Of a stretch of 10,822 nucleotides of DNA, positions 1-10,822 are shown piece after piece; within the stretch, counting starts at the first letter, position 1; every line of letters starts with the position of its first letter. Both the position numbers and the translations under genes were made by a program. Below the pieces are notes generated by a model that saw nothing but the letters and a program-made list of their open reading frames with translations, searched no databases and was not told the origin of the DNA. The stretch covers positions 1-10,822 of the forward strand of contig LKUE01000272.1 in NCBI GenBank assembly GCA_001412365.1. Reading direction: 5' to 3'. Origin of the DNA: Desulfuromonas sp. SDB. Its GTDB lineage: Bacteria; SDB-A.

Positions 1-949
1 ACCAGGTTTTTTTCAGGGTTAATTTCAGGAAGCTGAGGGGTTGTTGATAAATGAAATGCAATCCCCGTTTAAGCCAGTAAGAGGATACCTGTGAAGGCTT
101 AAGAGTGTGTCCTACTGCTCTTTCCGCCAAGGAAACTTCATCCCAATCATCTCCCACTTCGGGGATAACTGCACTTTTACCATCGGAATTTTCGTTGTTC
201 CCGATATAGAAGATAACTCCTCCCTGGGAAGCGATTAGAACCAGGTCATTACCTACTGCATAATTTCTCAAAGTTATTGGAAATATCAGTAATATCAATC
301 CCAGGGTCAGCCATAATAATTTTTTAATTGATTTCCGCCGGTACTTGAAAATCAGTGAAATTAAGTACAGGGGATAGAATATTAGAATATTGGGCCGGGT
401 TAGGGCAGCTAACCCCATAACCACTCCTGCCCAAAAGAACAGGGGAGAGGAAAATTTCAGTTCGGCTTGAATCAGCAGGTAGATAAAAATCAAGAAAAGT
501 AAAGTTAACAGGGTTGGAATTAATATTTCACCTTGAAAATATATTAAGATGCCGTTGAAAGCCACTAGGATCATAGAGACCAGGGCAATGGAGAAATTAA
601 ATAATTTTTTGGCGATAATATAGGTAAATAAAACAGCGGCGGTGGACAGAAAAACCTGGGTTATTCTAACTGCCCACAAGCTGTTATTGCTTAACCAGTA
701 AATTCCTGCCACAAAATAGGAATAAAGCGGCGCCCGGAAAAATACCTGACTGCCCATGAAGTTTTCATTTAAAATGGATAATGCTTCCCGGTTGAAAAAC
801 ATGGGGTCGCCGAATAAATTGTAAAAAAAGGGATTGGCGCTAATTTGCTTAATATACACTAACCTGATAATCAGGGATATTGATAAAATGAGGGCAACCG
901 GGATCAGTTCTGTTTTGTATTTGTTATATAAATATTTCAGCCGGTTCAT
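1..949 (-). CDS. GT-C membrane glycosyltransferase, family 39/PMT_2-like (3' end beyond window)
   Basis: The frame stays open for 316 codons from an ATG at 949 to the window edge, so the C-terminal part is missing. Members of this family move a sugar from a polyprenyl-phosphate donor to a lipid or protein acceptor on the outer face of the inner membrane. The translation starts with a short basic stretch and a membrane helix at about residues 14-33. A loop follows carrying an acidic residue in F-G-D-P (D48), the usual place of the catalytic Asp. Next come R-A-P-L-Y (72-76), typical of PMT_2 proteins, further hydrophobic helices (about 95-112, 120-137, 143-160, 170-182, 188-201, 210-226), F-Q-G-E (138-141), R-P-N (185-187), and a G-N-N-x-x-x-D-G motif at 250-257 opening the periplasmic domain. 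No Shine-Dalgarno sequence is visible before the ATG, but the helix and catalytic loop fit this start. It is divergent from the radical SAM gene. Family assignment is firm; donor and acceptor are unknown. Confidence 0.85.
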   Translation of the reverse strand, partial: MNRLKYLYNKYKTELIPVALILSISLIIRLVYIKQISANPFFYNLFGDPMFFNREALSILNENFMGSQVFFRAPLYSYFVAGIYWLSNNSLWAVRITQVFLSTAAVLFTYIIAKKLFNFSIALVSMILVAFNGILIYFQGEILIPTLLTLLFLIFIYLLIQAELKFSSPLFFWAGVVMGLAALTRPNILIFYPLYLISLIFKYRRKSIKKLLWLTLGLILLIFPITLRNYAVGNDLVLIASQGGVIFYIGNNENSDGKSAVIPEVGDDWDEVSLAERAVGHTLKPSQVSSYWLKRGLHFIYQQPLSFLKLTLKKTW

Positions 950-1027: not shown

Positions 1028-2473
1028 ATGAAGAATGTCAAAAAAATAATGCTAATCTATCCCCCTGGAAAGATGTACCAGCGGGGTGAAGATCGTTCCC
1101 AGGGCAATATATTTCTTTCTGCTGCTACCACCATGAGAGCATGCAATGATTTGGGTTATGCTGCTTCTAATCTGAAAAAAGATGGACATGATGTCTTTCT
1201 CCGGGATTATCAGACTGAAGGTTTAACCAGGGATGAATTGATTGCAGATTTCAGAAGTTATCATCCCCATTACCTTTTTACCAGCACCACTGATGCAACT
1301 ATTTTCGATGATTTACAGATATTATCCCAATTAAACCAAATTTACCCAAAATGCAAAATCATCCTTAAGGGAGCTTTATTTTTTGATTTAGACCAGCAGA
1401 TATTGAACAGCTTGCCCTTGTCCGGCATTGATTATCTAATTGGTGGAGAAAGCGATTTTATTATCGCCAGGTTAATTAAAGCTGATCAGTGCAAAGAAAA
1501 ATTAAGTTCAGTACCGGGAATTATTTATAAAGAAAACAAGCAGTGGCATAAAACTGAATTTAAGTGGTGGGAAGAAAATCTGGATTCTTTGGATTTCCCA
1601 GACCGGGAGCAGATGAACAACCGTCTTTATATCCGTCCGGATACCGGAGAACCAATTGCTACCATTTCAGCATCCCGGGGCTGCAGTTATAATTGTATAT
1701 TTTGCCTCACTCCCCGTATTTCGGGGACCAGAATTAGATTCAGGTCAATATCCAATATTATTGATGAAATTAACAGTTGTTACCACCGTCACGGGATTAA
1801 AAATTTTTTCTTCAAGGCGGATACATTTACCCTGGATAAAAATTGGGTAGGGCAATTATGTGCTGAACTAATTAAAACCGGATTATCTGATAAAATCCAA
1901 TGGGCGGCAAATTCCAGGACCAATCCTTTGGATTTTGAAACCCTCGATCTTATGCATTCAGCCGGATGCTGGCTGGTGGCTTATGGTTTTGAATCAGGCA
2001 GTCCGGAAACCTTAACCAGAATTGAAAAGCAGATCAGCATTGCGGATAATCTCAGAGCAGCCCAAATGACAACAGAAGCGGGAATGGAGATTTACGGTTT
2101 CTTCGTCATCGGTTTTCCCTGGGAGGATTACCGGCATCTTGCTGATACTGAAAATCATATTTACCAGCTGAATTCAGACTTCATTGAGATTCATATCGCC
2201 AACCCTTATTACGGAACTAAACTTTATCAAATCGCCCAGCAGGAAAATGTACTGGAGGGGAATGTTTTGGGGGGAGATTATTTCAGCCCCACCATCAAGG
2301 GGACAAAATATTTAAGTTTGAAAGCACTGAAAAATTTTAGAAAAAGGTTGCTCCTTCATTATTATCTCCGCCCTGAGTATATCATGTCCAGAATTTACCG
2401 GAATAAGAAGAATGTTAACAAGATAAACAACTATATTAAATATGGGATAAAACTCATAAAAAACACTTTGTAG
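1028..2473 (+). CDS. B12-binding-domain type radical SAM enzyme
   Basis: The 481-residue protein has the two-part layout of class B radical SAM enzymes: an N-terminal Rossmann-like cobalamin-binding region (about 1-180, opening with I-M-L-I-Y-P-P) and a radical SAM barrel (about 205-420). The barrel carries the CX3CX2C motif at C219, C223 and C226 that binds the [4Fe-4S] cluster. A-S-R-G precedes it and the glycine-rich G-F-E-S-G-S follows at 320-325. The classical D-x-H-x-x-G lower-ligand motif is not intact: D60-Y-Q-T-E-G65 has Gln in the His position, as in many relatives that bind cobalamin without a His ligand. Members do methylations or ring rearrangements in lipid, glycan, antibiotic and chlorophyll pathways. 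The stop lies 7 bp before the dehydrogenase gene, so the two are probably co-transcribed. The ATG at 1028 has only an AAAGG about 14 bases upstream; an ATG at 1049 is possible but would clip the first strand. Family sure, substrate unknown. Confidence 0.88.
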   Translation: MKNVKKIMLIYPPGKMYQRGEDRSQGNIFLSAATTMRACNDLGYAASNLKKDGHDVFLRDYQTEGLTRDELIADFRSYHPHYLFTSTTDATIFDDLQILSQLNQIYPKCKIILKGALFFDLDQQILNSLPLSGIDYLIGGESDFIIARLIKADQCKEKLSSVPGIIYKENKQWHKTEFKWWEENLDSLDFPDREQMNNRLYIRPDTGEPIATISASRGCSYNCIFCLTPRISGTRIRFRSISNIIDEINSCYHRHGIKNFFFKADTFTLDKNWVGQLCAELIKTGLSDKIQWAANSRTNPLDFETLDLMHSAGCWLVAYGFESGSPETLTRIEKQISIADNLRAAQMTTEAGMEIYGFFVIGFPWEDYRHLADTENHIYQLNSDFIEIHIANPYYGTKLYQIAQQENVLEGNVLGGDYFSPTIKGTKYLSLKALKNFRKRLLLHYYLRPEYIMSRIYRNKKNVNKINNYIKYGIKLIKNTL

Positions 2474-2480
2474 AATCATT

Positions 2481-3212
2481 ATGTCCTGGATAATTCTAGT
2501 TGGCGCAAATTCCGATATGGCTAAAGCTGCTGCCGGGAATTTTGCCCGGAGAGGATACAACCTGTGTTTACTTACCCGCAATCCCCAAAAATTAAATTAT
2601 CTGACGTCTTATTTGTCCCAATCCTATAAGGTAAAAGTCATAGCCAGGTATTTTGAAATTGAACATTTTCTTAAATTTAAGCACTGCTGGGACGACTTAA
2701 AACCATTTCCAGTGGGGATAATATACTTTATCGGCTATTTAGGGGAAGACAGTTTAAACATCAGTTATTCTGAAATTGAAAAAGTGTACAATCTGAATTG
2801 CATTTGTGCGGTTAAAATGTTTAATTATTTCAGCTTAAAGTTTATTGATCTTAACCGGGGCAGTTTAATCGCAGTTAGTTCAGTTTCCGGAGAAAGAGGG
2901 AAAAGCATGCATTATCTTTACAACAGCGCTAAAAGCGCCCTGTCTATTTATCTGCAGGGATTGAGACTTAAGTTAATGGATAGAAAAATAAAGGTTGTGG
3001 ATATACGTCCCGGTTTTATAAAAACCAAGTTCACTAAGTTTTACGGAATAAAAGCAAAGATGGCGGTGTCTCCTGAATATACAGGAGAAAAGATATTTCA
3101 AGCTTATAAGTCAAACCGGGGTATCGTTTACATCCCCTGGTGGTGGAGATGGTTGATGTTGGCGGTTAAATTAACTCCGGAGAGATTATTAGGTTGGATA
3201 ACTTTAAAATAA
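2481..3212 (+). CDS. Short-chain dehydrogenase/reductase (SDR), DprE2-like shape
   Basis: This 243-residue protein is a classical-size SDR that should reduce or oxidise a hydroxyl/keto group using NAD(P)H. The nucleotide-binding loop is a variant, G8-A-N-S-D-M-A, instead of T-G-x-x-x-G-x-G. R33 in L-T-R-N after the second strand hints at NADP(H). The catalytic Ser is in A-V-S-S (133/134), and the Tyr and Lys are in Y147-N-S-A-K151. R-P-G-F at 176-179 is the usual strand after the active site. The C-terminus (219-240) is rich in Trp and hydrophobic residues and ends beside a Pro-Glu-Arg, like the membrane-hugging tails of SDRs acting on polyprenyl-phosphate sugars (DprE2 type). With a GT-C glycosyltransferase next door, a lipid-linked sugar substrate is an attractive inference but not shown. 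There is no clear Shine-Dalgarno; translation may be coupled to the gene 7 bp upstream. Confidence 0.88.
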   Translation: MSWIILVGANSDMAKAAAGNFARRGYNLCLLTRNPQKLNYLTSYLSQSYKVKVIARYFEIEHFLKFKHCWDDLKPFPVGIIYFIGYLGEDSLNISYSEIEKVYNLNCICAVKMFNYFSLKFIDLNRGSLIAVSSVSGERGKSMHYLYNSAKSALSIYLQGLRLKLMDRKIKVVDIRPGFIKTKFTKFYGIKAKMAVSPEYTGEKIFQAYKSNRGIVYIPWWWRWLMLAVKLTPERLLGWITLK

Positions 3213-3216
3213 GGAG
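3211..3216 (+). promoter_or_regulatory. Ribosome binding site of the lipoprotein gene
   Basis: AAGGAG lies 9 bases before the ATG at 3226 and overlaps the TAA stop of the dehydrogenase gene (3210-3212). It fixes the start that yields the signal peptide, and implies translation follows directly on the upstream gene. Confidence 0.75.
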
Positions 3217-3225
3217 CATGATATT

Positions 3226-5157
3226 ATGAGAATTGTTAACAATAGCTTAATGGTTATTTTAATCGCCTTAATTGGATTTAGCTGTTCTCAACAAAATAAT
3301 GAACAAGTGGAAACTGATTCCTCTGATCAAGTTTCACCGGGACCTCACTGGGATGGTGAGCCGCTGGATCCCTATGATATTCTCCGTAATTATTATCAAG
3401 CTCTGGGAGGTTTGGAAACAGTTAAACAGCATAAATCCTCCTATATGCGCGGTTCAATTGAAGTGGTGGGAGCGGGACTGGAGGGAATTTTTGAACAGTG
3501 GAACAAGTATCCCATATTTTCCAAAGAATTTTTAGATCTGAAAGTTATGACCCAGACTTCCGGAGATAACGGGGAATACAGATGGGAACTGGATATGAAT
3601 GGCAATCTGCAGATCAAACGTGATCAGAATACCTTGCAAGCCAGAGAATTAAGCGCTCTAACTGCTGATTATGAACATTTAAATCCGGAATCAGAAATAT
3701 TTAAAATAAGGTTTTTAGGGGTTGATACTGCTGCCGCTAAATACTGCTATGTTTTGGAAATCACCAATTCCTTAAATGAAGATACCACCTTGGAATACTA
3801 TGACAGTTCAACTTATTTACTTATTAAGAAAATAGAAGATAGCCAGGGGCATCAGACTCATACTGTTTATTCGGATTACCGGGAGGTGGAGGGAGTGCTT
3901 TATTCATTCCATCAGCACATCACCATAATGCCCATTAAACAGGAGTTGGATGTTATGGTGGAACAGCTGGAGGTTAATGTGAGCATGGACAGCAGTTTAT
4001 TTCAACCTCCCCAGACAGATTCCCGGGACTATTCATTTGCCAACGGAAAGTTTGTGGAAAATATTCCCATAAAATACATTCATGATCATGTATTTATACA
4101 GTCGGAAGTGGAGGGCGAGAAAAACTGGTGGATTTTAGATTGCGGGGCAGGAAAAACTGTGGTCAGTGCGGAATACGCTCAGCAGCTGGGATTGGATGTG
4201 CAGGGCAATATAACCGGGGGGGGAGCCGGAAACACGGTGGAAGTATCCTTAGCCACTTTACCTCCGTTGAGTATTGATCAGCTTCAGTTTGATTCCCAAA
4301 TAGTAGTAGTTATTGAAATAAAACCGTTCATGACCAGATTGATGAGAACGGAAGTGGTGGGTATTTTAGGCTATGATTTTCTTTCCCGGTTTGTTACTAA
4401 AATTGACTATGCCCGAGAATTAATCTCCTTCTATGATCAGGATTACTTTAACTATGAAGGACCGGGAACAGTAATCGATGCTCCTCTGGAAGACAATATG
4501 TTTGTGGTGGAAGCAGCAGTGGACAGCATTTACCAGGGTAAGTGGAGATTAGATATTGGAGCAACCGGGCTTGGTTTCCATTTTCCCTATGCCCAGCAGG
4601 AAAAATTGCTGGAGTTAAACGGCGTTCCCACTATTGGGTTTGGAGCAGGAGGAGAGATACACAGCAAGCTGTACCGGTTTAATAAGTTTGAAATTGCCGA
4701 GTACACTGTAGATGATCCCATAATTGCCATACCTCTGGAGAAGGGGGAAGGAGCTTTAGCTGACCGCAGATATATGGGAAATTTAGGCAACACTGTACTC
4801 AGGCATTTTATATTGTACTTGGATTATCCCGGGCAAACGGTGATTTTGGAACCCGGAGATAATTATGAAAAAGTATTTCCCACCGATCACAGCGGTTTGG
4901 GTATTTGGGACGGCGATCAGGGAGTGGAGATATTCTTTGTAGCAGAAGGAACCCCCGGGGATCAAGCTGGATTAGAAAAAGGCGATGTTATTGAGGAGAT
5001 CAACGGGCAGAGTGTTGAAGAGTTCGCCGGTTTACAAGAAATCAGGGATGTTTTCAAGCAGCCTCCGGGTACAGAGGTAGTTCTTTCCGTGATCAGAGAT
5101 GGTCAGACTGTAGATATTAATTTAATCCTGGAGGATTTATTTGCAGACCTGGAGTAG
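3226..5157 (+). CDS. Lipoprotein with LolA-like domain, two aspartyl-protease-like lobes and a C-terminal PDZ domain
   Basis: The 643-residue protein begins with a lipoprotein signal peptide: a hydrophobic stretch at 7-18, lipobox G-F-S-C, acylated C20, then a polar linker. Residues about 48-260 look like the beta-rich LolA/outer-membrane-lipoprotein-sorting fold often found before these proteases. Two retropepsin-like lobes follow. Lobe 1 (about 285-405) has I-L-D-C-G-A-G (D305) and the second signature V-G-I-L-G-Y-D-F (378-385). Lobe 2 (about 425-540) has R-L-D-I-G-A-T-G (D443) and M-G-N-L-G-N (517-522). A PDZ domain fills about 555-635 (G-L-G-I carboxylate loop, A-G-L-x-x-G-D-V-I). Both catalytic triads deviate from D-T/S-G, being D-C-G and D-I-G, so peptidase activity is uncertain and a binding role is possible. 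It probably sits in the periplasm or on a membrane. Third gene of the plus-strand group, 13 bp after the dehydrogenase gene. Confidence 0.85.
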   Translation: MRIVNNSLMVILIALIGFSCSQQNNEQVETDSSDQVSPGPHWDGEPLDPYDILRNYYQALGGLETVKQHKSSYMRGSIEVVGAGLEGIFEQWNKYPIFSKEFLDLKVMTQTSGDNGEYRWELDMNGNLQIKRDQNTLQARELSALTADYEHLNPESEIFKIRFLGVDTAAAKYCYVLEITNSLNEDTTLEYYDSSTYLLIKKIEDSQGHQTHTVYSDYREVEGVLYSFHQHITIMPIKQELDVMVEQLEVNVSMDSSLFQPPQTDSRDYSFANGKFVENIPIKYIHDHVFIQSEVEGEKNWWILDCGAGKTVVSAEYAQQLGLDVQGNITGGGAGNTVEVSLATLPPLSIDQLQFDSQIVVVIEIKPFMTRLMRTEVVGILGYDFLSRFVTKIDYARELISFYDQDYFNYEGPGTVIDAPLEDNMFVVEAAVDSIYQGKWRLDIGATGLGFHFPYAQQEKLLELNGVPTIGFGAGGEIHSKLYRFNKFEIAEYTVDDPIIAIPLEKGEGALADRRYMGNLGNTVLRHFILYLDYPGQTVILEPGDNYEKVFPTDHSGLGIWDGDQGVEIFFVAEGTPGDQAGLEKGDVIEEINGQSVEEFAGLQEIRDVFKQPPGTEVVLSVIRDGQTVDINLILEDLFADLE

Positions 5158-5166
5158 GAATTATTG

Positions 5167-6135
5167 TTATTTTTTCAGGGAAGATCCCCATCCTGATCCT
5201 ACCACCCGGTTTGCCTGGGAAATGACTTTAACTGTTTTTTCCAGAGTGATATGATCTTTGTGGTCATAGATCTGGTAGTTATGACGGTATTTATCAGGAG
5301 TGTAATCAACCATAATAACGTTACATCCTGCATTTAATCCCCGCAGGAGCCCCTGCTGGGGATCCAGGGAGGATAGTGCGGTAGTGGCGGGAATGTGTGA
5401 ATTGCAGGTAATAATCCTGGAAACCGCCAGAACTTTAAGGGTTAATTCCACTGATCCGGGAGGAGAACTGCCTAAAGGAGTATCGGATTGAGGTATAAAT
5501 GGACCTATTCCGAACATATCCGGTTGAAGTTTATCAATGAGTTCCAGATTCAGCACTAACTCCTGTTCAGTTTGACCGGGCAGACCTACAATAAAACCAG
5601 TGCCAATTTCATAACCTAGGGTCCTGAGATGAGATAAAATTTTTAACCGGTGATTTAAACTTTGACCGGGGTGAAATTTACTGTATCTCACTGAATCAGC
5701 AGTTTCCTGTTTTAGCAAATAGCGGTCTGCTCCTGCCTTCTTGAATAATTCATATTCCTCCAGGGGTCTTTCCCCAATGCTTAAAGTTAGAGCTACTGGA
5801 TAGGTGGATTTTATATTTTTGATAATACCGGCTATCTGCTTCGGTTTAAAATTAAAATCATCTCCGGATTGAAGTACAATGGTGTTTATTCCCAGGTTTA
5901 CCAGGTTTTCAGAGCTTTCCATTATTTCAGATTCAGTTAAACGGTAGCGGATTATTTTTTTATTTTCCGCTCTTAATCCGCAGTAAAGACATTGCCGACA
6001 GCAATAATTGGAAAATTCAATAATTCCCCTGATGTGCACTTGGTCACCGCAATAGTCCAAACATACCTGTTGGGCTTTATTGAACAGCTTCTCTGGTGAA
6101 AGGCGGAGTAATTCAGCAATCTGAGAGCGGTACAT
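5167..6135 (-). CDS. hydE: [FeFe]-hydrogenase maturase HydE (radical SAM)
   Basis: HydE acts on the Fe(CO)2(CN)-cysteine complex released by HydG, in the pathway to the 2Fe subcluster of the H-cluster. The 322-residue protein matches the family throughout: V-H-I-R-G-I-I-E-F-S-N, the CX3CX2C cluster motif (C45, C49, C52, followed by G-L-R), I-V-L-Q-S-G-D, D-R-Y-L-L-K-x-E-T-A, G-L-P-G-Q-T, and G-I-G-P-F-I-P. It has no cysteines in the C-terminal part, so the optional second [4Fe-4S] cluster seen in some HydE proteins is absent. By recalled comparison with Thermotoga maritima HydE it is about 18 residues short at the N-terminus, lacking the first helix. The ATG at 6135 has no good ribosome binding site (AGAAG lies about 16 bases upstream) and is preceded in frame by a TAG nine bases before it, the stop of the small upstream gene. 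Last gene of the operon; its stop is 9 bp from the stop of the convergent lipoprotein gene. Confidence 0.95.
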   Translation of the reverse strand: MYRSQIAELLRLSPEKLFNKAQQVCLDYCGDQVHIRGIIEFSNYCCRQCLYCGLRAENKKIIRYRLTESEIMESSENLVNLGINTIVLQSGDDFNFKPKQIAGIIKNIKSTYPVALTLSIGERPLEEYELFKKAGADRYLLKQETADSVRYSKFHPGQSLNHRLKILSHLRTLGYEIGTGFIVGLPGQTEQELVLNLELIDKLQPDMFGIGPFIPQSDTPLGSSPPGSVELTLKVLAVSRIITCNSHIPATTALSSLDPQQGLLRGLNAGCNVIMVDYTPDKYRHNYQIYDHKDHITLEKTVKVISQANRVVGSGWGSSLKK

Positions 6136-6144
6136 TGATTTTGT

Positions 6145-6438
6145 CTATAACTTCTGATGGATAAAATTTACAATCTGATTAATTATATCTTGCTGTTGTT
6201 CAGGGGGAAGATCGGGCAAGTCATTGGAAACTAAACCCAGGTTTGATTTAAGTTCAATGCGCAAAGGAGGGAGCAGCTGGTCTGGGTCACAAATTCCTGC
6301 AATATAAGACCACCTGCGGTTTAAAATCTCCACAAACCAGATATTGATTTTATATTGCTGTTTTATCTGTTCAGCTAGAAAATCCAGCTGGCGGATGAAA
6401 TCAGCATCGAACTGATCAGAAATATAAGTCCCGTTCAC
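6145..6438 (-). CDS. Unrecognised 97-residue protein between hydG and hydE
   Basis: I do not recognise this family. The frame starts with GTG at 6438, overlaps the end of hydG by 23 bp, and stops with TAG 9 bp before hydE, with which it shares a reading frame. AGGA lies 9 bases before the GTG, and no other in-frame ATG or TTG start occurs in the first third. The protein is soluble-looking, with no signal peptide or membrane segment. Its likely order is an amphipathic helix (10-29), strands around I-N-I-W-F-V-E-I (31-38), W-S-Y-I-A-G (43-48) and L-R-I-E-L (59-63), and a Gln-rich C-terminal helix (79-97). It has only one cysteine (C50), so it is not a metal-cluster protein on its own. Position suggests an accessory role in H-cluster maturation, perhaps binding HydE or HydG, but that is inference. 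It is unlike HydG, HydE or HydF domains except possibly its last few residues (see findings). Confidence 0.75.
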   Translation of the reverse strand: MNGTYISDQFDADFIRQLDFLAEQIKQQYKINIWFVEILNRRWSYIAGICDPDQLLPPLRIELKSNLGLVSNDLPDLPPEQQQDIINQIVNFIHQKL

Positions 6439-7900
6439 CTTTAGATATCCTGTGGTAGTACTTCATCATAGTATCATAGACCTGGGGCATCTGCTGTTTG
6501 ACTTCCTGAATTTCCTTCACTATTAATTTTTCCCCCACCTCTCTGGTTTGCTCTGAAGCGAAATCGTCCAGCCATTCCCGGTATGTGAGAATTGCGTTAA
6601 TTTTACAGAAGTGTCCTTCTTTACCGCACTTGAGCAGCTTCATTATATGATCGCCGGTTCGTCCGCAGCGGTAACCGGCGGTGCAGAAAGAAGTTATATA
6701 TCCCATCTCTGCTAATTCCCTGATCACTTCGTCCATCTCCCGGGTGTCCCCCAGCAAGAACTGCTGCCGGTTAGCCTCCTGCTGGTTGTAACTTTCACTA
6801 TATGCTCCCAGACCGATCCTGGTGGAGGCATCGGTTTGAGTTACCCCCAGGGGTATTACCTCTTTTCGGATATCAGCTGGTTCCCTGGCGGTTAAAATCA
6901 TTCCGGTATAGGGAACGGATAATCTGATTACCACAATCAGTTTTTTAAAATCTTCATCGGAGACTTTGTACTGGGAATTTTCGGTGAGGGGAGCTCCTGC
7001 CGCCGGCTGAAGCCGGGGAAAAGATATGGTATGAGGTCCAATCCCCCCAAAGTTATTTTCCAGTTCCAGAGCATGATAGACCAATCCCATCACTTCAAAT
7101 CTCCAGTGGTACAATCCGAACAGTACTCCCAACGCCACATCGTCAACTCCTGCCTCCAATGCGCGGTGGTGGGTGTACAGTCTCCAGGGGTAGTTGTTTT
7201 TAATGGTTCCCTGAGGATGTACCTGGTTATAAGTTTGATGATGGTAGGTTTCATGGAATACCTGATAAGTGCCTATTCCCACTTCTTTGAGCAGTTTAAA
7301 ATCCTGAATGGACATGGGGGCGGCATTGATGTTTACTCTTCTGATTTCACCGAAACCTTTGCGGGTGGGTACTTTCATGCTGTAAATGGTTTCCAGGGTT
7401 TTGGCAATATACCGGGCATCGGATTTAGGGTGTTCCCCGTAAACTGAAATTAGCCGTTTATGCCCCATCTTTCCCGCCAGAACTTCTATTTCCGCCTTGA
7501 TTTCCTCCATACTCAGCCGGCGTCTGGTTTCCTGTTGATAATCTTTGCGGAAAGAGCAGTACAGGCAGTTATTAATACAGTAATTACTGCAGTAAAGTGG
7601 AGCAAAGAATACAATCCGGTTGTCATATACTTTCCTCTTAATCTTACCTGCCGCTTCGGACATTTCCTCCCACAGCTGAGGATCTTCGACATTGAGAAGA
7701 GCCGCGGTTTCTTCAGGCTGAAGGGTTTGGATATCCAGGGATTTGGCTATCAGATCCCTTACCAATTGGGGATCGGGTTTAACCTGGGATTTAAGCTGTT
7801 CCCAGATTAAATCGTCATTGATAAAATCCCGACCCTTTTCCATGTACTTGGTGTACTGCTGTTCTATGATTATAGGCGATGATTTGGTTTTTGCAGGCAT
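6416..7900 (-). CDS. hydG: [FeFe]-hydrogenase maturase HydG, tyrosine lyase, variant auxiliary-cluster motif
   Basis: HydG is a radical SAM enzyme that splits tyrosine to p-cresol and dehydroglycine and makes CO and cyanide on an auxiliary iron-sulfur cluster, yielding Fe(CO)2(CN)-cysteine. The 494-residue protein has the usual length and ends in the family's G-E-R-D-L-Y-F. The radical SAM motif is C108, C112, C115 after F-F-A-P-L-Y (98-103). Other family blocks are V-Y-G-E-H-P (153-158), R-R-V-N-I-N-A-A-P (187-195), G-P-H-T-I-S-F-P-R (288-296) and S-V-P-Y-T-G-M-I (328-335). The C-terminal cluster domain departs from the classical CX2CX22C: C406 and C432 are in place, the middle position is G409, and cysteines appear at C412 and C425. 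Sequence quality around this point looks good, with flanking family residues R-T-G-D (414-417) intact. It lies 14 bp after hydF and has a strong ribosome binding site. Confidence 0.95.
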   Translation of the reverse strand: MPAKTKSSPIIIEQQYTKYMEKGRDFINDDLIWEQLKSQVKPDPQLVRDLIAKSLDIQTLQPEETAALLNVEDPQLWEEMSEAAGKIKRKVYDNRIVFFAPLYCSNYCINNCLYCSFRKDYQQETRRRLSMEEIKAEIEVLAGKMGHKRLISVYGEHPKSDARYIAKTLETIYSMKVPTRKGFGEIRRVNINAAPMSIQDFKLLKEVGIGTYQVFHETYHHQTYNQVHPQGTIKNNYPWRLYTHHRALEAGVDDVALGVLFGLYHWRFEVMGLVYHALELENNFGGIGPHTISFPRLQPAAGAPLTENSQYKVSDEDFKKLIVVIRLSVPYTGMILTAREPADIRKEVIPLGVTQTDASTRIGLGAYSESYNQQEANRQQFLLGDTREMDEVIRELAEMGYITSFCTAGYRCGRTGDHIMKLLKCGKEGHFCKINAILTYREWLDDFASEQTREVGEKLIVKEIQEVKQQMPQVYDTMMKYYHRISKGERDLYF

Positions 7901-7914: not shown

Positions 7915-9177
7915 CTATTCTCTCTGTGTTTTTAGTTTATTTATTTCATCCTCATAAGCCATGAGCATGGCTGGAAAAGGTTTAAGCGTTCTTTCCACCA
8001 CTCCATGAAGGTAGGAGATGGCTACTCCGTAATTGGTTATGGAAACTCCATGCTGTTTAACATCCTGAATGCGGTTGAGCATTTCCCTGCGGGTGAGTAC
8101 ACAACCTCCGCAGTGTATAACCAGCTTATATTGGGACAGATTCTCCGGCCAGTCCCTTCCCGCAAATACATCAATAATAACATCCCCTCCGATGTACTGC
8201 CTGATCCACCGGGGTATTTTAACTCTACCTATATCATCCTGAATGGGATGGTGGGAACATGCTTCGGCGATGAGAATTTTATCTCCCGGCTGTATAAATT
8301 CCAACTGGGCTGCTCCCCGGGCTGCCTCCACCAGATCGCCCTTAAACCGGGCAAATAATATGGAAAAAGTGGTCATGGGAATATTCTTAGGGGTATCTGC
8401 GCTGACTTTGAGCACTGCCTGGGAATCACAGACCACCAGATCGGGGGGCTGGTTAAATCTTTTCAGCAGGGAGGCGAGCTCGCGTTCTTTAACTACCACT
8501 GCTGCGCTGTCATTATCCAGGGCATCCCTTATGGTTTGCACCTGAGGCAGGATTAATCTACCCTTGGGTGCCTGCAGGTCAATGGGCACCACCATTACCA
8601 CTATTCCTCCCGGAGAAATTAAATCCCCCACCAGGGGAGGTGGCTGGAGGAAATCATCGGGGCATAAGTGAATAAGAAGTTTTTTTAACTCAGATATGTA
8701 CTGATTTTGACGGGGATAATCAATACTGGAAACCAGCAGATAGTACTCAGTATGACTTTTAAGTTGAGTTAAAAATTTCTGCTGGGGTTTTTCCACATCA
8801 ATTTTGTTGACCACCACCACCACTGGAATATCAAGTTTATCTGCCTGGGCAACCACCATGTCTTCATATTCGGTCCACTGATTAGGTTCAGTTACTAATA
8901 GCACTATGTCTGCGCTTTTAAACACTTTGATTGTCCGGTTAATCCTCAATTTTCCCAGAGCGGTTTTATCATCTAATCCTGCAGTGTCCAGAAAATACAC
9001 CGGACCTAAGGGCAGCATTTCTATGGCTTTACCCACTACGTCAGTAGTAGTTCCGGCAATAGAAGAAGTTATAGCCACATCTTGACCGGTGACTAAGTTC
9101 AGATAGCTGGATTTGCCGGTGTTGGTCCGCCCGAACAGGGCGATGTGCAGTCTGTTTCCCCGGGGGGTTTTCTTCAT
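7915..9177 (-). CDS. hydF: [FeFe]-hydrogenase maturation GTPase HydF
   Basis: HydF is the scaffold on which the 2Fe precursor of the H-cluster is completed before transfer to HydA. The 420-residue protein has the three expected domains. The N-terminal GTPase domain (about 1-175) shows the P-loop G16-R-T-N-T-G-K-S-S24, a G2 region with G-T-T-T-D (42-46), D-T-A-G (64-67), N-K-I-D (124-127) and V-S-S (149-151). The middle dimerisation domain spans about 180-265. The C-terminal cluster domain carries the [4Fe-4S] ligands C307-S-H309 and H355-C356-G-G-C359, that is the CxH...HCxxC arrangement with normal spacing. The start ATG overlaps the aspA stop by 4 bp (ATGA), indicating coupled translation. 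Length and motifs are complete; I see nothing unusual in the protein. Confidence 0.96.
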   Translation of the reverse strand: MKKTPRGNRLHIALFGRTNTGKSSYLNLVTGQDVAITSSIAGTTTDVVGKAIEMLPLGPVYFLDTAGLDDKTALGKLRINRTIKVFKSADIVLLVTEPNQWTEYEDMVVAQADKLDIPVVVVVNKIDVEKPQQKFLTQLKSHTEYYLLVSSIDYPRQNQYISELKKLLIHLCPDDFLQPPPLVGDLISPGGIVVMVVPIDLQAPKGRLILPQVQTIRDALDNDSAAVVVKERELASLLKRFNQPPDLVVCDSQAVLKVSADTPKNIPMTTFSILFARFKGDLVEAARGAAQLEFIQPGDKILIAEACSHHPIQDDIGRVKIPRWIRQYIGGDVIIDVFAGRDWPENLSQYKLVIHCGGCVLTRREMLNRIQDVKQHGVSITNYGVAISYLHGVVERTLKPFPAMLMAYEDEINKLKTQRE

Positions 9178-10544
9178 TTACGGTATCCTAGTTTGGTAAG
9201 GTTAAAGGGAGATAATGTCTTTTCCACTATATCTTCTCCCAGTTTATGACTAAGCCATTGCCGGAAATTATTATCCGGTGAATTTTCAAATTCTCCCAAC
9301 AGCTTTTCCGCCCGGACATATCCGATTTCCGGAACAAAAGCAGTAATAATCCCAGGATGCCGGTTGAAATATTCCAGACAGCGGTTTCGATCTGCTTGAA
9401 TAGCTCTGACCATGGTGGCAAGCTGGGGATTGATATTTACCAGCAGCTGCAGAGATTCCAGGAGAGAATGAGCCAGAAGGGGCATAAATTCATTGATCTG
9501 AAGGTTCCCCCTGCTTACCCCTTCGGTAATAATCAAATCATTGGCAATTATCTTTATTCCGGTTTGGATAGCCAGTTCGCACATCACCGGATTTTTCTTC
9601 CCCGGCATGATGGTGGAACCGGCTTGATAAGAGGGAAGGATTATCTCCCCCAGCAAATTTAAATTTCGCAGATCATTGAATATCTTTATAAGATTTACCC
9701 CGTGAGTTTTAATCATGCCGGAAACCTCCACCAGGGGATCGGAATTGGCTGTTTCTCCGGCAAGATTTTCTCCCCGGGCTAAACCTAAATTAGTGATTTC
9801 CCTTAATCTTTCTGTTACTAAAAATATATACTGGCGGGGAGCAGTTAGTCCGGTGCCCAAAGCAGTACCTCCCAGGTTAATTACTCTGATTCTTTCGGTT
9901 GCTTTAAACACTCTCCACCGGTCCCGGGCAACTGCTTCGGAAAATGCGGAAAATTCAATTCCCATAGTAAGGGGAACTGCGGGTTGAAGTTCAGTACGGC
10001 CAATCTTGACGATATCTCCGAATTCCTTTTCTTTTTCCTGAAATGCGCCCTGCAAGAAACTTATCTCCTCACTGAGCTGGTTGAGCAGGTAGATTGCTGC
10101 AATTTTCAATGCGGTGGGGTAGGTGTCATTGGTGGATTGATGAAGATTTACATCTTCCAGGGGGTGGATTACTGCATAATCCCCTTTTGACTTCCCCAAT
10201 AGCTGAAGCCCCCGGTTAGCGATGACTTCATTGAGGTTCATATTCAGGGAAGTTCCTGCCCCCCCCTGCAGGGCATCCAGGGGAAATTGATCTGCATGCT
10301 CTCCTCTGATAATTTCATCGCAGGCTTGATTGATTGCCTCTGATATTGCCGGATCCAGAAAATTTAATTCAGAATTCACTGCAGCACATGCTTTTTTTAC
10401 CTGGGCATAGGATTTGATCAATAGAGGATGAACCGGAATCCCTGAAATATTAAAATTATTCAGGGCTCTTTGGGTATGTATCCCCCATAAGCTGTGGTCA
10501 GGAATGGATAAAGTGCCCAGTTGATCAGTTTCTTCCCTGACCAC
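9174..10544 (-). CDS. aspA: Aspartate ammonia-lyase (aspartase) within the maturation operon
   Basis: The enzyme reversibly splits L-aspartate to fumarate and ammonia. The 456-residue protein is a full member of the aspartase/fumarase superfamily: D-x-x-L-W-G-I-H-T-Q-R-A at 16-27, G-G-A-G-T-S at 94-99, Q-S-T-N-D-T-Y-P-T at 136-144, and the mobile catalytic loop G309-S-T-I-M-P-G-K-K-N-P319, with S310 the likely catalytic base. S-T-N-D and N-P-V favour aspartase over fumarase (S-S-N-D, N-P-T). T311 replaces the second Ser of the usual G-S-S loop but keeps a hydroxyl. The GTG start at 10544 follows AAGGAA by five bases and lies 2 bp after the regulator stop. A run of eight G on this strand encodes part of G-G-A-G. 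Its place among hydEFG genes suggests it serves hydrogenase assembly, perhaps as an ammonia source for the azadithiolate bridge, rather than only amino-acid catabolism; this is inference. Confidence 0.92.
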   Translation of the reverse strand: MVREETDQLGTLSIPDHSLWGIHTQRALNNFNISGIPVHPLLIKSYAQVKKACAAVNSELNFLDPAISEAINQACDEIIRGEHADQFPLDALQGGAGTSLNMNLNEVIANRGLQLLGKSKGDYAVIHPLEDVNLHQSTNDTYPTALKIAAIYLLNQLSEEISFLQGAFQEKEKEFGDIVKIGRTELQPAVPLTMGIEFSAFSEAVARDRWRVFKATERIRVINLGGTALGTGLTAPRQYIFLVTERLREITNLGLARGENLAGETANSDPLVEVSGMIKTHGVNLIKIFNDLRNLNLLGEIILPSYQAGSTIMPGKKNPVMCELAIQTGIKIIANDLIITEGVSRGNLQINEFMPLLAHSLLESLQLLVNINPQLATMVRAIQADRNRCLEYFNRHPGIITAFVPEIGYVRAEKLLGEFENSPDNNFRQWLSHKLGEDIVEKTLSPFNLTKLGYRK

Positions 10545-10546
10545 TA

Positions 10547-10804
10547 TTATTCCTTGGCAAAAGCAGATCGGACTTTAATTCCCTGAATTTGTCCTATCTT
10601 ACCGGTCAATGCCCCGATATCTTCAGTGCTTCCGTCCACAATTAAGGTGATGATGTTAATATTTTTTTCCCGGTAAGGCATTCCCATTCTTCCCAATATC
10701 AAATGTCCGAATTGGGAAAGTATCTGATTCAATATCTGGGCAGTTTGTTCCCGCTGCTGGATAATTATGCCGATGAAACCCACTCTGTTTTTATTTTTTT
10801 CCAT
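10547..10804 (-). CDS. TM1266-family iron-only hydrogenase system regulator
   Basis: This 85-residue protein matches the TM1266 family, small ACT/NikR-C-like ferredoxin-fold proteins found next to hydEFG or hydA genes and annotated as putative regulators of the [FeFe]-hydrogenase system. Family features are the first strand V-G-F-I-G-I-I-I, the amphipathic helix with Q-I-L-N-Q-I-L, the loop G-R-M-G-M-P-Y-R, the strand I-N-I-I-T-L-I-V, and the ending D-I-G-A-L-T-G-K-I-G-Q-I-x-G-I-K-V. There is no DNA-binding domain, so any regulation would act through ligand sensing or protein contacts. The frame is open upstream to the window edge with a TTG at 10822, but the ATG at 10804 is the better start: GGAGG lies 5 bases before it and the family begins with M-E-K. 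It stops 2 bp before aspA and is the first operon gene visible; the promoter lies beyond the window. Confidence 0.92.
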   Translation of the reverse strand: MEKNKNRVGFIGIIIQQREQTAQILNQILSQFGHLILGRMGMPYREKNINIITLIVDGSTEDIGALTGKIGQIQGIKVRSAFAKE

Positions 10805-10822
10805 ACAATCCTCCAAACGCAA

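Follow-up and report, generated by a model that had tools for sequence, protein, structure and literature searches.

A small conserved gene behind hydG is very probably an accessory component of [FeFe]-hydrogenase maturation operons

In the usual account, [FeFe]-hydrogenase maturation relies on three maturases, HydE, HydF and HydG, together with housekeeping helpers. The maturation operon described here carries a further small gene between hydG and hydE, referred to below as sml, which raises the question of whether this gene is a genuine part of the maturation system and, if so, with which maturase its product acts. The window (i.e. the whole stretch of DNA analysed, 10,822 nucleotides from Desulfuromonas sp. 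SDB) contains the operon in the order TM1266-aspA-hydF-hydG-sml-hydE, with profile scores for HydE, HydG, HydF and TM1266 that all exceed their cut-offs. The features are as follows:

5167..6135, minus strand: hydE, the next gene, of normal length (TIGR03956, 322 bits; HydE start comparison)
6145..6438, minus strand: sml, small HydG-associated protein gene (open reading frame; homologues 3' of hydG; predicted fold alpha-beta4-alpha)
6307..6321, minus strand: codons of the N40-R41-R42-W43-S44 hairpin (column counts in 41 members; model strands E33-39 and E42-48)
6416..6438, minus strand: 23-nt overlap of hydG and sml (open reading frame coordinates; similar overlap in most relatives)
6416..7900, minus strand: hydG, the constant upstream partner (TIGR03955, 455 bits)
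7915..9177, minus strand: hydF (TIGR03918, 538 bits)
9174..10544, minus strand: aspA, aspartate ammonia-lyase-like gene of the hyd operon (NF008909/PRK12273, 517 bits)
10547..10822, minus strand, reaching the window end: TM1266-family putative regulator of [FeFe]-hydrogenase systems (TIGR03959, 105 bits)

The first-pass annotation had described an extra small gene that overlaps the end of hydG and leads into hydE, and this arrangement was borne out by the open reading frame calls. The 97 codons of sml (97 aa) begin with a GTG that lies within the 3' end of hydG (HydG ...GERDLYF, ending at 6416), and 9 nt separate the sml stop from the hydE ATG at 6135. The span originally given, 6126-6438, thus holds for a real gene at 6145-6438, with its lower boundary running a few bases into hydE. 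Elsewhere in the window, a B12-binding radical SAM protein (HpnJ/BchE-like, under the cut-offs of those families) is closely followed by an SDR oxidoreductase at 1028-3212 (+), possibly as one operon, and a lipoprotein-like protein of 643 aa encoded at 3226-5157 (+) combines an aspartyl protease domain of the retropepsin type with a PDZ domain at its C-terminus.

The most basic alternative is that sml is a spurious open reading frame or a decayed piece of hydE or hydG. It could draw on the lack of a database family for sml and on the reading frame, which sml shares with hydE across the TAG and the three codons between them, the HydE profile match extending slightly over this TAG. A split or decayed hydE N-terminus was nevertheless rejected, since a normal-length HydE starts at 6135 and HydE starts at the same position in many other loci. 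Selection was assessed in eight close sml pairs, with codons overlapping hydG omitted as far as possible, yielding dN/dS values of 0.06-0.38 at dS 0.14-1.15; an earlier set of pairs included one with few changes and a dN/dS of about 0.5 (L076/L083) and several distant pairs near synonymous saturation. These substitution patterns indicate that sml is protein-coding and constrained by purifying selection, yet fast-evolving. Together with homologues in dozens of genomes, a confidently predicted common fold and the normal HydE start, they make a spurious or decayed origin extremely improbable for the window gene, and for the sml family that reading is already refuted. The test for a decayed gene piece suggested in the first-pass annotation therefore left the gene standing.

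Used as a single-sequence query, sml returned only hints in 60 genomes, although homologues were located directly 3' of hydG in G047, G013 and G038. Rapid divergence within the family left such searches nearly empty, so that an alignment had to be used. Scanning named genomes for HydG provided 80 loci, and an iterated profile run on these and the earlier loci recovered 29 sml members, nearly all immediately 3' of hydG. The bacterial members belong to Thermodesulfobacteriota, WOR-3/Hydrothermota, Omnitrophota, Fibrobacterota, Riflebacteria, KSB3, Coatesbacteria, Spirochaetota, Neomarinimicrobiota and Bacillota (Clostridium thermobutyricum, Vallitalea), and one archaeal member was found in an Archaeoglobaceae MAG.

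Because the iterated profile search had covered hyd loci only, whole genomes were searched next. The sml profile produced 19 clear matches in 386 genomes, every one of them immediately 3' of hydG and in a genome that also encodes Fe_hyd_lg_C proteins; two marginal matches lay elsewhere. HydG scored over its cut-off in 95 of these genomes, and sml occurred in 19/95 HydG-positive vs 0/291 HydG-negative genomes (Fisher p 6e-13). After the addition of further phyla, clear matches (E 1e-4 or better, G498 left out) amounted to 49 genomes, with hydG directly upstream in 48 of them; the homologues beside hyd genes that the first-pass annotation had proposed to look for are thus present. In the one exception (G782; L230/L241), sml follows a 3' remnant of hydG, and an intact hydG lies elsewhere, near an apparent contig end; this separation is probably an assembly break, or otherwise a natural one. 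A member in L110, at 9881-10126 (+), is located 3.3 kb downstream of hydG, past unrelated phosphoesterase-like genes. Several candidates were not counted: matches in G016 and G335 (E 0.003-0.005) fell outside hyd loci, and a doubtful one upstream of a yebC-like gene (G498:C120 4568-4741, L208; E 2.5e-8), also outside a hyd locus, is a possible distant homologue as judged by its profile match. An apparent sml-HydF fusion (a 419-codon frame in L220) arose from reading through a scaffold gap of N, and no fusions of sml were found among the members. One genome (L163, G230:C1) carries a second hydG copy, apparently in two frames and still followed by sml, in addition to an intact hydG elsewhere.

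Neighbouring genes were compared across 37 loci. The upstream gene was hydG, with an overlapping junction in 29/37 when overlaps were computed from the first possible start codon. Downstream, the neighbour was hydE in 18 loci, aspA in four, hydF in two and TM1266 in one; 11 others had another gene or none, and one ended with the contig. Furthermore, hydE is several genes away from sml in L061, L069 and L073. The downstream gene thus varies, and it is hydG rather than hydE that is the constant partner. The accessory role that had been read from gene position in the window is consistent with this conserved placement and overlap with hydG, whereas the tie to hydE that accompanied it extends to only about half of the loci.

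On a HydG tree, sml was present in 40/93 loci of one large clade and in 0/29 of the other sampled clade, with at least 16 gains or losses; support for the root split between the two clades is weak (SH-aLRT 57), and because sampling of loci followed their similarity to the window HydG, the clade fractions are not frequencies in nature. Three labels were corrected by hand where an over-long start had hidden adjacency. After correction for the tree, no HydG column was convincingly tied to sml presence, and HydE length and start were alike in sml-positive and sml-negative loci. The patchy distribution, including absence from the other sampled HydG clade, suggests a modulatory rather than essential function, HydG being able to work without sml.

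The window protein was modelled with AlphaFold2 from 26 sequences as alpha-beta4-alpha (mean pLDDT 90.7, pTM 0.80), in agreement with the compact alpha-beta pattern anticipated from the sequence. A divergent member from L100 was predicted with its elements in the same order (pLDDT 87.9), although the two models are only partly independent, as both alignments contain the same members. Conservation among 41 members is centred on the beta1-beta2 hairpin, G-[RK]-R-W-S: G40 in 35/41 (Asn in the window), R/K41 in 35/41, R42 in 41/41, W43 in 35/41 and S44 in 35/41, followed by G48 in 34/41. The earlier remark that cysteine motifs are missing agrees with the column counts, in which neither Cys nor His is conserved (best columns 18/41 and 5/41, respectively).

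PDB structures matched by the models, at Z up to 7.9 and 7.2 and Foldseek E values of 0.05 or more, were nearly all GAF and roadblock/LC7 domains. Like the roadblock/LC7 domains of MglB and the Rag C-terminal domains, the models have a helix, an antiparallel sheet and a C-terminal helix, and the match is weak (VIA Z 6-8, up to 7.8; rmsd 3.5 over 94 residues). Unlike these, sml is about 85-97 residues long, has no sequence match to them and lacks one strand and, in both models, the central helix of the roadblock topology (alpha-beta-beta-alpha-beta-beta-beta-alpha). GAF domains (miRFP670nano3, free methionine sulfoxide reductase, IclR effector domains) share the fold outline with a similarly weak match (VIA Z up to 7.9, rmsd 2.5 over 85 residues); however, sml has no sequence match to them either, is smaller than the usual GAF core, and shows four strands in both models instead of a five- to six-stranded sheet. 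Since Z values under 8 can mean just a common arrangement, according to the tool's own warning, only the fold outline is claimed, and sml may be described, weakly, as a minimal single-domain fold that is GAF/roadblock-like in outline.

The first-pass annotation had recognised no domain, and we likewise obtained no family match in Pfam, NCBIfam or PDB sequences. Among 26 members, Pfam roadblock profiles gave no match at E values up to 1 and Pfam GAF profiles gave none. The best profile match in PDB (E 0.22) and the best PHROG match (E 0.003 in two members, phrog_31151, no function) were judged to be due to chance. Literature searches on hydG neighbours returned no description of sml, which is absent by name from all the family libraries and papers searched.

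A caveat concerns the genome of the window organism. Its assembly (G000; 433 contigs, 98.7% complete, 3.9% contamination) has a full maturation operon, and a canonical HydA was not found in it (best TIGR02512 score 106 bits vs a cut-off of 406). It encodes three Fe_hyd_lg_C proteins of 418-445 aa (C351, C393, C206; L197-L199), in which the usual H-cluster motifs are all or mostly missing. Genomes of the same family carry a HydG of the other clade, and tetranucleotide use places the window close to other contigs of the assembly. The assembly may lack HydA, or the contig could stem from horizontal transfer or mis-binning; in each case the family-level evidence for sml is untouched. In L197, of the same genome, a Fe_hyd_lg_C protein lies between two related small proteins (488-874 (+) and 2855-3529 (-)), which to the eye resemble roadblock proteins; one of them has a DUF4388 domain.

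Taken together, sml is very probably a real accessory gene of the [FeFe]-hydrogenase maturation system. The Fe(CO)2(CN)Cys synthon produced by HydG goes directly to HydE, and defined in vitro maturation improves with NfuA, through which the dangler iron of HydG is reloaded (PMC11736057, PMC12752695). A CO-binding myoglobin variant also benefits in vitro maturation (PMC12752695). Synthon transfer and dangler-iron reloading are HydG tasks that could need help. The reading we tentatively prefer, at a little short of even chances, is that the sml protein acts directly with HydG, release or hand-over of the synthon being the favoured step. Made from the same operon as HydG, it would be a dedicated partner that docks on HydG through the G-[RK]-R-W-S hairpin; once docked, it might hold HydG in a productive state or, as an alternative step, promote the release of the Fe(CO)2(CN)-cysteine synthon and its hand-over to the next maturase. 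A gene that follows hydG, encodes one conserved hairpin and provides no metal ligands fits a HydG docking partner better than a metal carrier. Against direct action on HydG stand the patchy presence of sml on the HydG tree, its placements away from an intact hydG (L110, and L230 with the hydG tail only) and the lack of a HydG residue that convincingly tracks it; furthermore, a conserved position speaks for joint expression and does not imply physical contact.

Other functions were weighed against the same evidence. The fold matches bear on two of these. As a small-molecule sensor or regulator, sml would bind a metabolite (cysteine, tyrosine, SAM or a CO-related compound) in a GAF-like domain and adjust HydG activity or operon expression, perhaps together with the TM1266-like protein, whose gene occurs in many sml operons. 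GAF and related ligand-binding folds, along with roadblock domains, are indeed the best structural matches, but four strands and about 85 residues leave scant room for the usual GAF pocket, the Z values may signify a common arrangement only, and the conserved residues cluster on the hairpin, which would suit a docking site more than a pocket; we consider this reading unlikely. The Rag C-terminal roadblock domains and MglB among the top matches raise instead the idea of an MglB/MglA-like regulator that binds HydF, a GTPase encoded in most sml operons, and alters its GTPase or unloading step. With the central helix and a roadblock sequence match both missing, and hydF directly adjoining sml in few genomes vs hydG upstream in nearly all, this is quite improbable.

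Gene order and residue conservation bear on the remaining two. A role for sml in stabilising HydE or in presenting it with the synthon has about as small a chance as regulation of HydF: hydE is directly downstream in 18/37 loci, including the window, but the other half lead to aspA, hydF, TM1266 or unrelated genes, and HydE itself does not differ in length or start with and without sml. Stabilisation of HydE, one of the roles envisaged in the first-pass annotation, is accordingly less likely than action with HydG, as the gene upstream is constant and the one downstream varies; passage of the synthon from HydG to HydE, the other role envisaged there, may apply. Finally, sml could load a HydG cofactor by supplying the auxiliary [5Fe-4S] site with iron or cysteine between turnovers, as NfuA does in vitro; the constant pairing with hydG and the need to reload the dangler iron after each product (PMC12752695) would suit a loader, but without an invariant Cys or His the chances of this role are low.

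The preferred reading, direct action on HydG, has a stronger form in which sml would be a fourth dedicated maturation protein, confined to a single large HydG clade; by binding HydG it would govern how the Fe(CO)2(CN)Cys synthon is released or handed over. This is possible but doubtful; if true, the textbook set of three maturases would be incomplete in many anaerobes. The occurrence of sml across many phyla points to a helper that has been missing from accounts of the HydG step, at which additives improve in vitro systems, and makes sml a small candidate that might raise heterologous hydrogenase yields.

Compared with the known maturation set of HydE, HydF and HydG, sml is encoded in the same operon and overlaps hydG, but it is no maturase, has no radical-SAM, GTPase or Fe-S motif, and is missing from many HydG-bearing genomes. 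A closer parallel in kind is the aspartate ammonia-lyase of hyd operons, another accessory gene for which a role was proposed from a conserved position within the operon (PMC11736057). AspA is a known enzyme that supplies ammonium for the DTMA ligand (PMC11736057), whereas sml shows no catalytic signature and stays with hydG. Operon-linked accessories of metal-cofactor assembly are a known kind, and sml is a new case of it rather than a new kind of system.
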